60,783 bases of DNA. Origin: Verrucomicrobiia bacterium (GTDB lineage Bacteria; Verrucomicrobiota; Verrucomicrobiia; Verrucomicrobiales; Akkermansiaceae). How positions within the stretch are numbered: the first letter of the stretch is position 1; each line of letters starts with the position of its first letter. The DNA is taken from the NCBI GenBank assembly GCA_030432565.1, contig JAUIGV010000031.1:1-60783 (forward strand), given 5' to 3'. A program made the translations under genes and the position numbers. Shown piece by piece: positions 22,504-50,164 of this stretch. The notes beneath the pieces are model-generated. The model worked only from the letters and a program-made list of their open reading frames with translations, was not told where the DNA came from and did no database searches.

Positions 22504-22594
22504 GGACCGGTGGCTGAGTGGTTGAAAGCGCTCCCCTGCTAAGGGAGTATACGTCAAAAGCGTATCGAGGGTTCGAATCCCTCCCGGTCCGCCA
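22504..22594 (+). tRNA. tRNA-Ser (anticodon GCU)
   Basis: A 91-base class II tRNA. The acceptor arms GGACCGG and CCGGTCC pair fully, the anticodon loop CTGCTAA gives GCU (reads AGC/AGU), there is a long variable arm (TATACG...CGTATCG), the T arm is GGGTTCGAATCCC, and the CCA tail is encoded (ends GCCA). It has its own promoter and terminator. Confidence 0.97.
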
Positions 22595-46711: not shown

Positions 46712-47623
46712 TTAGTCCGAGTCTTCCGGAAGCCTGGCCAGAGCCATCATGGCGCGGGCCGGAGTGGCGGAGTGCAGCGTGATTAGGGTGCGCCCTTTGT
46801 CGTTGTCCTTGCGGGAGCCTCCATTGCCCATGGTGCTGATGGTGGCGACATGGCCAATGACATTGCCGAAGGTGTCGAGCACCGCGGAGCCGCTGGAGCC
46901 CGGTGCCCAGCGGGTGCTGACGTTGAGCTTGAGGGCACCGAGAGCCTTGATGGAATTGGGATCATCACCGCGCTGGTCGCTGTCCCAGTAGAAGCGATTG
47001 ACCATTCCCTGGGAGAAGTATTGGCCTTGTTTGAGCGGGCGACTGAGGCAGAAGGCGGAGTCCCCTGGCGAGACCTGGTCGTTGAGAGGCAGAGGAGTGG
47101 TTTTGGCATCGATCTTGATGAGGGCACCGTCGATTTTGTTGTCGTTGGCCAGAATGGAGGTGACCGGGAAGACCTTGCCGGAGTGATCAACTGCGATGAG
47201 GCCGCCTTTGCGCATCTTTTTGTTGTCCATTTTAATGACGTGGGCGCAGGTGCCTAGGACGCCATCGGTCGTAAGAGCGTAGCCGCCGGCGAGGTTGATG
47301 TGCCAATTATCGCAGTTGTTGCAGAGGTAGGCCCAGCCGACGCGGTAGCCACTTGCTTTGGCCCGTGTGGCAATCTGGGTGGGAGTGAGTGCGGTTTGGT
47401 GCGCGGCGGGAAGCTCGAGCTTGGCCGCGGCGGGAGATTTGATGAGTTCGCCGGTGGCTTCGAGGCCCAAGAGCTTTCCGTCTTCGAAGAGTTTTTCGGC
47501 TTGCTTGGCGATCCGCTTTTCCTCGGCGCGCAGGCCATTCCGGGATTGTTCAAAAATGGAAACATCCGGGCTTTGGGCGGAAGCCGAAAGGATCAGGGCG
47601 AGAGCGATGAGATTGGATTTCAT
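46712..47623 (-). CDS. Secreted trypsin-like serine protease with intact triad
   Basis: 303 aa, signal peptide MKSNLIALALILSASAQ. A helical region (20-95) precedes the protease domain. The triad is complete: His128 in GTCAHVIK, Asp165 in IDGALIKID, Ser245 in APGSSGSAVLD. CNNCDNWHIN (101-110) holds a Cys pair just before the fold. It resembles the HtrA-like group but has no PDZ domain. Extracytoplasmic proteolysis is likely; the substrate is unknown. It is 9 bases upstream of pdxA. Its arrangement (secreted, helical front, trypsin fold at the end) is shared with the inactive protein at 9290, which makes a paralogous active/inactive pair possible. Confidence 0.85.
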   Translation of the reverse strand: MKSNLIALALILSASAQSPDVSIFEQSRNGLRAEEKRIAKQAEKLFEDGKLLGLEATGELIKSPAAAKLELPAAHQTALTPTQIATRAKASGYRVGWAYLCNNCDNWHINLAGGYALTTDGVLGTCAHVIKMDNKKMRKGGLIAVDHSGKVFPVTSILANDNKIDGALIKIDAKTTPLPLNDQVSPGDSAFCLSRPLKQGQYFSQGMVNRFYWDSDQRGDDPNSIKALGALKLNVSTRWAPGSSGSAVLDTFGNVIGHVATISTMGNGGSRKDNDKGRTLITLHSATPARAMMALARLPEDSD

Positions 47624-47705
47624 TTGGTGGGAAAGCGTCGCTGGTTGGTGGAGTTGTGACTAGCAATGCAATTCATTACGAGTAGGTATTTGATTCAATT
47701 AAAGC

Positions 47706-47721
47706 TGGCACGGGGGCTGCA
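47706..47721 (+). promoter_or_regulatory. Near-consensus sigma54 promoter
   Basis: TGGCACG, four bases, CTGCA: this matches the sigma54 consensus TGGCACG-N4-TTGCW at all fixed positions but one. The expected start is near 47732. No plus-strand protein gene begins within a kilobase downstream. Confidence 0.65.
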
Positions 47722-47731
47722 TTGTTTTCCT

Positions 47732-47822
47732 TCGACAAAGTCGGGTTTTTGTTTGTTGCCCTACTGTCATTGTCGATTGTGTGTGCGAAAAGGGCGGTTC
47801 TTCGGAGCCGCCCTTTTCCTAT
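47732..47822 (+). ncRNA. Candidate sigma54-dependent small RNA
   Basis: About 90 bases from the predicted sigma54 start to a strong intrinsic terminator (arms AAAAGGGCGGTTC and GAGCCGCCCTTTT). The 5' end can form a small CGAC-AAA-GTCG hairpin and is followed by a U-rich stretch. The gap has no plausible plus-strand ORF: the one open frame begins with TTG upstream of the predicted start. The terminator may also serve the minus-strand DUF6268 gene. Target is unknown. Confidence 0.4.
47787..47818. terminator. Bidirectional intrinsic terminator after the DUF6268 gene
   Basis: GGGCGG-TTC and GAGCCGCCC pair in a long stem around TTCG, flanked by AAAA and TTTT on either strand. It lies 15 bases past the DUF6268 stop codon. 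Confidence 0.85.
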
Positions 47823-47832
47823 TTTAACCGGG

Positions 47833-48717
47833 CTACCATTCATAGAGGTTAATCCCGAGGTAGCCGAAGAATCCGTTATCGAGATCCTCTTCGAAAATCG
47901 TGTTGCCATTTTGCTCGGCCCGGAGTTCGTTCGCAAAGTTGGTTCCGGCCCAAGCGGTGAGCCAAACGCCCCGGCGTAATTTAAAGTCGATCCCAAGCCC
48001 GGCGTTGTAGCTGGCGAAGCCGTAGTCGACGGAATTCCCGGCGTCATTCTCGACATTCCAGAGGCCGCCCGTTGGAAAACCTCCTCCGCGGATGATGAGG
48101 CGATCGTTGATTTTGTGGGAAAGAGTGATCCGGGGTCCCAGCAGGGTGAAGGCCCAGTCATCGGTGGGTTGCCAGGTGCAACCGAGCGCGGGAAGAACCA
48201 TGGCTTCGCCAAAGTTCCGCACGCGGGCGGCTCCAAAATTCAGCGAGAAGCTATCGGAGAACTGATATCGGGCGCCGACGCGAGCGAAGTAGTCGAAATC
48301 ATGACTGGTGATGCTGTTAAAGTCAGTGGCGAGTTGACCGGAGATTTGAGCAAAAAAAGACCAAGGTGAGTCGGAGGGGTCGTAGCTGAAAGACAGTGGG
48401 ACGATAATGTCATGCAGGTGGCCGAGATCCGCACCGGAGTGAAAACTCCCTGTGTCGATGCGGGTGAAGCGGTAATTGACTCCATAGAACATTTTGATTT
48501 CGTCGCTGAACTCTTTGTTGAGGGCAAACCCGCCCTGAAGGGTGAGTTGTTCCCAGCTAAAGTCGCTCCCACCATTTTCGGGTGATGCACCTCCAAAGAT
48601 GACTCCGAATCGCCCCGGCATTGCGGTCATGGGTGAGCGACTCTCCGGCTCGGGATCAAGATTGGCAGCTGCACTGAGGGTTGAAGCCAGCAGGGCAGAA
48701 GTGAAGGGGCGGGTCAT
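47833..48717 (-). CDS. DUF6268-type outer-membrane beta-barrel protein
   Basis: 294 aa. A signal peptide (TSALLASTLSAAANL) is followed by alternating hydrophobic beta strands with aromatic girdles, such as WSFFAQISGQLATDF, FDYFARVGARYQFSDSFSLN and VWLTAWAGTNFANEL. The C-terminus ends YLGINLYEW, an aromatic-terminal strand as in many BAM-inserted proteins. This matches the DUF6268 outer-membrane proteins of Verrucomicrobia and Planctomycetes; a porin or structural role is possible. It is monocistronic with its own terminator. Confidence 0.75.
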   Translation of the reverse strand: MTRPFTSALLASTLSAAANLDPEPESRSPMTAMPGRFGVIFGGASPENGGSDFSWEQLTLQGGFALNKEFSDEIKMFYGVNYRFTRIDTGSFHSGADLGHLHDIIVPLSFSYDPSDSPWSFFAQISGQLATDFNSITSHDFDYFARVGARYQFSDSFSLNFGAARVRNFGEAMVLPALGCTWQPTDDWAFTLLGPRITLSHKINDRLIIRGGGFPTGGLWNVENDAGNSVDYGFASYNAGLGIDFKLRRGVWLTAWAGTNFANELRAEQNGNTIFEEDLDNGFFGYLGINLYEW

Positions 48718-48868
48718 GGTCTGAATATGGTTCCAATTCCGGAATGTGAAAGAGGGGAGTGCTTATCAGGAGGAATGAGTTGATTTCTGAAAAAGTAGAA
48801 AAGGTTTTTTGCTGCCAAACCATGGCCAATTTCGGTATTTCCAAAACGTATCCGCGTCACTTCGAAAT

Positions 48869-50164
48869 ATGAAATTTAAAACGCTCATCTGTATTGCCTC
48901 AATTTCGGGATCTATTCTGCCGCAGGTCTTTGGAGGCGATCCCATCATCTCGCCCGGAGATCCGGTTCTCGCGATCGATGAGGACATTGCTTCAAACAGC
49001 AATTATCCCGTTGGCGAGGGCCCCGGATTGATTGTGGATGGCAGTGCTTCCACCAAATACCTGAACTTCGGCCGCGAAAACTCGGGCTTCATCGTGACCC
49101 CGGCATTTGGTTCGAGTGTGTTACGAAGCTTTGTCATTACGACAGCCAATGATTCGGTCGAGAGAGACCCCACCAGTGTCGTGATTTATGGGACAAACAC
49201 TGCGATTGTCTCGTCCGATAATTCCGGCGGGGCGGGCGAGTCGTGGACGAGAATTGCAGAACTGGATCTGGATCTTCCCGATCTCCGCTTTGAGCCTATG
49301 GCGGTTTTGAATGTTCCGAACGAAGCGGTGTTTTCCTCCTATAAATTCGTCTTTCCTACGATGAAGGGACCGACCCATAATTCGATGCAGATTTCCGAAG
49401 TTCAGTTTTGGGATGGCAGTAGCGGGCAGGGTTCGCCAATACTTCGGCCAAATGATCCCGTTCTGGCGATTCACGAAGCTTCGCCGGAAAGTGGGTTCCC
49501 GGGGCCCGAGGGGCCGGAGAATCTTTTCGATGAATCGTCCTCGACCAAATATCTGAATTTCGGACGTGAAAATAGTGGCTTCATCGTTACTCCCTCATCC
49601 GGTCCATCCGTAGCCGGATCTTTCATTTTGACCACGGCAAACGATTTTAACGGGCGGGATCCGATTTCATGGGAAATCTTCGGAACAAACGCAGAAATTG
49701 TCACTGAGAACAACGGAACCGGCCAAAATGAACCTTGGACTTTACTGGGTTCCGGGACGGTCGAAACTCCCTTGGCAAGATTCACGGCAGCGCCTGAAGT
49801 GTTTTTTGACAACGCGGTGAGTTACACCTCCTACAAGTTTCTGGTGACCAGTGTTAGATCTCCCTTGGGGGCCAATATCGACTCAACACAGTACTCCGAA
49901 TTCCAGCTTTTTACTTCGGACACAGCCCCCCAGGAGATCAAAATTACAAGTATTGTCCCTGACTTGCAGAATGACGAAGCCACCATTACATGGGATGCTC
50001 CCGCGGGACAGCTCTACCTTCTTCAGTCTTCGCCCGACCTTTTGGACTGGAACACTTCGGTCACCGGTGGGGCGATCGAGGTGGAGAGCGATAATCCTCT
50101 GACCTTCCAGCCTCCGGCCGGGGGCAAGGTCTTCTACCGGATCATTCGCGCGCCCATTCGTTAA
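48869..50164 (+). CDS. Secreted protein with two duplicated ligand-binding-like modules and C-terminal module
   Basis: 431 aa from ATG 48869 (MKFKTLICIASISGSILPQV, a signal peptide). Two modules of about 155 residues, 30-183 and 196-350, are clear duplicates. Both open with DPVLAI and share STKYLNFGRENSGFIVTP word for word, and both have TTAND, RDP, and FGTN or YGTN blocks. The pattern with an N-terminal strand, an early S-TKYLNF loop and SSYKF/TSYKF near the end resembles discoidin-like (F5/8 type C) galactose-binding domains. Residues 355-431 match the shared exoprotein C-terminal module (LLQSSPDLLDWNT, VFYRIIRAPIR). An adhesin or lectin-like role is inferred. Confidence 0.75.
   Translation: MKFKTLICIASISGSILPQVFGGDPIISPGDPVLAIDEDIASNSNYPVGEGPGLIVDGSASTKYLNFGRENSGFIVTPAFGSSVLRSFVITTANDSVERDPTSVVIYGTNTAIVSSDNSGGAGESWTRIAELDLDLPDLRFEPMAVLNVPNEAVFSSYKFVFPTMKGPTHNSMQISEVQFWDGSSGQGSPILRPNDPVLAIHEASPESGFPGPEGPENLFDESSSTKYLNFGRENSGFIVTPSSGPSVAGSFILTTANDFNGRDPISWEIFGTNAEIVTENNGTGQNEPWTLLGSGTVETPLARFTAAPEVFFDNAVSYTSYKFLVTSVRSPLGANIDSTQYSEFQLFTSDTAPQEIKITSIVPDLQNDEATITWDAPAGQLYLLQSSPDLLDWNTSVTGGAIEVESDNPLTFQPPAGGKVFYRIIRAPIR

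Follow-up and report, generated by a model that had tools for sequence, protein, structure and literature searches.

A candidate sigma-54-dependent small RNA gene conserved together with its promoter in one genus of the Akkermansiaceae

The DNA that was analysed (the window, 60,783 nucleotides; contig C40 of the 5.9-Mb genome G000 of a Verrucomicrobiia bacterium) highly probably contains a stand-alone gene for a noncoding small RNA, which would be transcribed by sigma-54 RNA polymerase under the control of an activator and would act in trans. As judged by sequence comparison, it is very likely a real regulatory RNA and a previously undescribed one. A sigma-54-driven small RNA had been proposed at this locus in a preliminary description made from the single sequence, and this reading was best supported by the comparison, with 15 copies of the RNA and with rpoN and activators in the genome, because promoter and RNA were conserved jointly, the copies lay in varied neighbourhoods, the sequence had drifted between the conserved blocks, the terminator had undergone compensatory changes and no ATG frame was common to the copies. 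The features of the locus were as follows.

46712..47623, minus strand: divergent neighbour, a Trypsin_2 protease (context, outside the RNA unit)
47665..47677, no strand assigned: imperfect palindrome AATGCAATTCATT, some 60 bp upstream of the expected start
47706..47721, plus strand: predicted sigma-54 promoter with -24 (TGGCAC) and -12 (CTGCA) elements, an exact match with the letters TGGCACGGGGGCTGCA
47732..47822, plus strand: predicted small RNA of about 90 nt, its start placed at about 47732 from the -12 element; represented by the transcript-only covariance model R1
47732..47776, plus strand: predicted 5' stem-loop, a hairpin being predicted in 15 of 15 copies
47751-47761, plus strand: core A, GTTTGTTGCCC, partly in the loop of the 5' stem-loop
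47767..47785, plus strand: core B, TCATTGTCGATTGTGTGTG, with its 3' half as an unpaired linker
47787..47818, plus strand: intrinsic terminator stem-loop of 14 pairs with a loop of 4, 55 nt past the expected start
47833..48717, minus strand: convergent beta-barrel-like neighbour, with DUF6268 above and OMP_b-brl below the cut-off (context)

The consensus of sigma-54 promoters is TGGCAC-N5-TTGCW, with GG and GC 10 bases apart. The letters at 47706-47721, TGGCACGGGGGCTGCA, correspond to TGGCACG-N4-CTGCA; position and letters of the site had been given correctly in the preliminary description, and its strong terminator about 55 bases past the start was recovered as the 14-pair stem at 47787-47818, which begins at 55 nt and is followed on its 3' side by a T-rich tail. 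An exact 12-base match is a rare event, with an expectation for the window of about 0.007 by our own arithmetic; with up to 2 mismatches allowed, 5 sites were found in the window against 4.3 expected. The relaxed pattern TGGCAYN6TGCA had 20 matches in the genome, most of them within long reading frames, against 11 for the reversed control. The site alone is therefore only suggestive and no proof, and the comparison decides. A pattern scan of contigs from many bacteria gave 18 matches, of which nine were in records of Akkermansiaceae, Verrucomicrobiales or Verrucomicrobiota and the other nine were in unrelated bacteria, close to the 11 or so that chance would give by our own arithmetic. No sigma-70 promoter overlapping that of the small RNA was found at the locus by a simple scan. 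The box around the palindrome (47661-47690), between the protease start and the promoter, had 72.5% identity in ten syntenic copies; the palindrome AATGCAATTCATT was not recognisable in G008, had another spacing in G016 and was not common to all copies, and it is possibly an activator site or an operator of the protease.

Copies of the RNA were searched for at DNA level in 97 genomes, among which 13 matched, G034 at the terminator only; the remaining 12 genomes, including that of the window, carried 13 copies. These 13 transcripts, with the promoter left out, were used to build R1, by which the 13 copies were scored at 76-106 bits in the 27 genomes of the genus and two divergent copies were added (G016, 42.3 bits; G008, 41.8 bits). 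Matches below 32 bits, whether full-length or of the terminator only, were excluded; 18 of the 27 genomes would be counted with them. By R1 score and our own reading, the RNA was thus present as 15 copies in 14 of the 27 genus genomes; of the 13 genomes with a completeness of 90% or more and a contamination of 5% or less, 7 carried it. No convincing copy was found by R1 in the other 13 of 27, several of which are incomplete, and the RNA is therefore dispensable. Each carrier had one copy except G022, in which two tandem copies (L013:2846-3095), each with its own sigma-54 site, adjoin a protease remnant; this pair is a local duplication with diverged cores. Upstream of the protease in G006 (L099:2409-2577), CTTGTGTG and a terminator were seen as a weak match with no sigma-54 site, and this stretch is perhaps a decayed copy.

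Outside the genus, R1 gave matches in 129 of 386 genomes drawn from the order (E up to 0.01), and a second model, R2, matched 40 of 260 family genomes at E up to 0.001, and 23 of these 40 belong to other genera; R2 was used only for finding copies, its automatic structure containing spurious pairs with promoter DNA. The matches that were read resembled terminator matches: a sigma-54 site in place together with the cores was seen in none of the sequences read from the R1 and R2 searches (sets of nine, seven, one and three), which covered ten of the 23 other-genus genomes with R2 matches. A scan of 36 loci (L016-L051) for sigma-54-like sites recovered the known copies plus a few sites judged unlikely; the pattern used was too strict to catch the site of G008. 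The RNA is so far known from one genus, with no convincing copy outside it among the matches read. A search of related genomes for the site plus terminator had been proposed in the preliminary description, with absence of conservation named among the results that would speak against the RNA; promoter and RNA were kept together in 15 copies, in 14 of the 27 genus genomes.

Directly upstream of the RNA, the GG-N10-GC spacing of sigma-54 sites was kept in 15 of 15 copies, and the -12 TGCA was altered to GGCA in G004 and to TGCG in G022b. The two divergent copies found by R1 had the sites TGGCACAGGCGGTGCT and GGGCATGCGGGTTGCT, which precede the match by 23 and 21 nt; the sites of G016 and G008 scored 11 and 10 of 11, respectively. 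When the window was cut into 9,342 overlapping stretches of equal length to these, a site of at least 10 of 11 was present in 14 (0.15%), some of which contain the present site itself. Block by block, the mean pairwise identity of ten syntenic copies was 100% for the -24 element TGGCA, 59% for the spacer, 95% for the -12 element TGCA, 44% for the ten bases after it, 50% for the first part of the RNA, 92% for core A, 56% for the middle, 96% for core B, 83% for the terminator and 40% past the terminator; the third codon positions of the protease had 51% (nine of the ten syntenic genomes). With all 13 aligned copies, the corresponding values were 100% (-24), 92% (-12), 87-88% (cores) and 46% (spacer). 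This joint conservation of promoter and RNA cores, with drift between the blocks, is therefore more than chance. In the terminator stem, 99.5% of the cells were paired in the 15 copies and 5 of 13 pairs were changed on both sides, with 18 such cells against 5.3 in shuffles; the stem has undergone compensatory changes.

In the predicted folds, UUUGU lay in the hairpin loop or its apical part in 13 of 15 copies (the exceptions being G016, where it is outside the hairpin, and G008, where it is changed), and the GUGUG linker before the terminator was unpaired in all 15. The fold of 47732-47824 had a z of -5.7, to which the terminator contributed most; the 5' parts alone had a mean z of -1.6 over the 15 copies (range -4.9 to -0.1), so that the 5' fold is predicted to be only modestly stable, and its long outer helix had no covariation support when compared with shuffles. 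A search with 4227 Rfam families gave nothing at the gathering score at the locus, all eight weak matches being below it; the only match at the gathering score in the window was the tRNA at 22504. With a promoter and a terminator of its own, a predicted length within 50-300 nt and no conserved ORF, the locus fits the description of a bacterial small regulatory RNA gene.

In the neighbourhood comparison (headed INDEPENDENCE), ten of the 14 carrier genomes had the protease next to the RNA; it was on another contig in G010 and G008, present as a remnant in G022 and not found in G016. The barrel gene, whose stop is 15 bases from the terminator end in the window, adjoined the RNA in the window's genome and in G003, G020, G025, G014, G023, G017, G026 and G022, was represented in G004 by a 37%-identical partial match beside the RNA, and was not found beside the RNA in G011, G010, G016 and G008. 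The order in most carriers was pdxA-protease-RNA-barrel. Other arrangements were the barrel gene replaced by a relative of the gene at 48809-50164 of the window (G011), the RNA between an HTH_25 (RodZ-like) gene and an apparent orthologue, by eye, of the window's 50294-51097 gene (G010), the order HTH_25 gene-protease remnant-two tandem RNAs-barrel (G022), an HTH_25 gene near the RNA (G016) and a methyltransferase together with cytochrome/LRR genes (G008). Five copies in four genomes sit apart from an intact protease, and the RNA is therefore a unit of its own. The protease adjoining the RNA in G023 (C9:188261-189168; L006 / L102, L108) was matched in two pieces, and it may be broken or the assembly may be in error.

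A single rpoN match was found in the window's genome, and rpoN (PF04552) was found once each in 24 of the 27 genus genomes; none of the three genomes that lacked a match is more than 80% complete. An activator match (PF00158) at E below 1e-69 was present in 27 of 27; weaker PF00158 matches were unspecific, all 14 control genomes being matched as well. The window's genome had five strong activator domains (PF00158, E below 1e-40). The carriers G003, G025, G017 and G011 had two strong activators each, one of the C68 type and one of the C49 type, and only the C68 type was found in the carrier G004. Both types were present in the non-carrier G006, and activator content therefore does not track the RNA. 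The C68 regulator has receiver, sigma-54 interaction and HTH_8 domains, follows a PAS-histidine kinase frame and did not reach the cut-off of any of the 25 NCBIfam families listed for it; the response regulator of this kinase-regulator pair is weakly favoured as the activator of the RNA. Elsewhere in the genome, a sigma-54 site lies before a Ro60/TROVE gene divergent from RtcR (L137, G000:C36:44477-44492; RtcR at 769.6 bits against an NCBIfam cut-off of 650), a locus which would be an RNA-repair regulon. Another lies about 100 bp before a PEP-CTERM-like secreted-protein gene with a Pfam match below the cut-off (L139, G000:C38:65114-65129), a sign that surface proteins of the lineage may be under sigma-54 control. 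Both sites support the motif as working in this genome.

For the targets of the RNA, the antisense of core B was searched with up to 3 mismatches in the window's own genome, where 15 matches outside the RNA, most of them inside reading frames and away from starts, were found against 2 for the reversed control, and with up to 2 mismatches in the genus, where, apart from the RNA loci themselves, 11 matches were found against 1, with 7 of the 11 in carriers and 4 in non-carriers. The reversed control differs in dinucleotide make-up and the excess is not decisive. No gene recurred among the 11 genus matches, and only at L224 and L226 did the proteins concerned share identity (28%). The start of pyruvate carboxylase in the window's genome (L187, G000:C62:45520) was complementary to both cores, with duplex energies predicted at -23 to -31 kcal/mol, and was followed in the 20 best loci, 18 of which had a readable start (11 carriers, 7 non-carriers). 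The full 9-base complement was found in 2 of the 11 carriers, and 8 of the 9 bases were kept in the non-carrier G015; pyruvate carboxylase was rejected as a target for lack of conservation across the carriers.

With the small RNA reading, a signal would lead a sigma-54 activator, most likely the C68 response regulator, to open the promoter, and transcription would yield an RNA of about 90 nt that ends at its own terminator. The RNA would then regulate in trans: most likely its loop (UUUGUUG) and linker (GAUUGUGUG) would pair with several mRNAs or, less likely, a protein would bind to the loop and linker stretches. In a rival reading, the RNA is mainly a decoy for an RNA-binding protein, which would be held by the single strands UUUGUUUGUU and GUGUG in the manner of CrcZ and Hfq-Crc, instead of pairing with mRNAs. 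The conserved stretches are indeed single-stranded in the predicted folds and no gene recurs among the 11 antisense matches, but core B exceeds, in our own judgement, the length and exactness required of a simple binding motif, and the antisense matches exceed the reversed control both in the own genome (15 against 2) and in the genus (11 against 1); the decoy is considered rather unlikely, albeit worth keeping in mind. Only slightly more doubtful is the tentative idea of a new Verrucomicrobiota family of regulatory RNAs, under sigma-54 and a two-component activator, that acts chiefly through the conserved single-stranded linker GAUUGUGUGUG, perhaps by binding to a protein so far unknown as a partner of small RNAs; a circuit of this type might be one of the first outside Proteobacteria.

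It is improbable that the sigma-54-controlled RNA regulates its own neighbours, namely the convergent beta-barrel gene or the divergent protease. The protease adjoins it in most carriers, the barrel gene does so in the window's genome and eight others, and the terminator ends close to the barrel-gene stop; function linked to neighbours was rejected in view of the copies that have different surroundings (G010, G016 and G008, with only a protease remnant in G022). A short protein-coding transcript is given very little credence: TTG or GTG frames cross the core in some copies, but 10 of the 15 copies lack an ATG in the first 70 nt, the longest frame varies in start and length, the conserved region is interrupted by gaps of 2 and of 3 bases, and the conservation of core B extends to every codon position. 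The earlier statement that no plausible ORF is present agrees with the lack of an ATG frame common to the 15 copies. Equally slight is the probability that the locus holds no small RNA and that its sigma-54-like site lies next to a shared terminator by chance. The genome does have many matches to a relaxed sigma-54 pattern (20, with 11 for the control), and on the opposite strand the terminator possibly acts for the convergent gene as well, for which reason it had been cautioned that its presence proves little. This caution is sound in that the convergent gene needs a terminator, but it leaves the conserved promoter, the two cores and the copies elsewhere unexplained, and promoter and cores were conserved jointly in 15 copies, two of which were found blind.

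The RNA is considered a new family of a kind known from Proteobacteria, found in one genus so far. In the surveyed part of the open-access literature, no sigma-54-driven small RNAs of Verrucomicrobia or Akkermansia were recognised; the available part of a start-site study including Akkermansia muciniphila (PMC4782308) mentions none, and the part seen of a survey table (PMC9029176) gives 8 distinct small RNAs for Planctomycetes-Verrucomicrobia-Chlamydiae against 345 for Proteobacteria. If true, the logic of signal, NtrC-like activator and small RNA reaches the Planctomycetes-Verrucomicrobia-Chlamydiae group, and a defined RNA of 90 nt with 15 copies and a testable promoter is a starting point.

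That sigma-54-controlled small RNAs are known in Proteobacteria, as had been stated at the outset, is borne out by GlmY, CrcZ/CrcY and Qrr in the literature. Qrr occurs in several copies in some vibrios. The Qrr RNAs of Vibrio have a sigma-54 promoter and the NtrC-family activator LuxO (PMC10162802, in part), and the present RNA is alike in being a small RNA with a sigma-54 promoter and, as predicted, an NtrC-family activator; it differs in that it has no Rfam match, belongs to another phylum and is present in one copy per genome except in G022. GlmY of Escherichia coli is activated at a -24/-12 promoter by a kinase-regulator pair (QseF/GlrR) and has an overlapping sigma-70 promoter too (excerpt of PMC7073468). 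The -24/-12 promoter and, presumably, the kinase-regulator pair are shared with the present RNA, which unlike GlmY has no sigma-70 promoter by the simple scan and again no Rfam match; no obvious rapZ was seen by eye within 4.5 kb of rpoN. CrcZ/CrcY of Azotobacter are RpoN-dependent small RNAs (CbrA/CbrB) that antagonise Hfq-Crc, and crcZ adjoins cbrB (PMC6292655, accessible part). Dependence on RpoN is the likeness predicted for the present RNA, which in the loci read does not adjoin an activator gene in the way crcZ adjoins cbrB. CrcZ is longer and has A-rich motifs, whereas the present RNA is U/G-rich and about 90 nt long.
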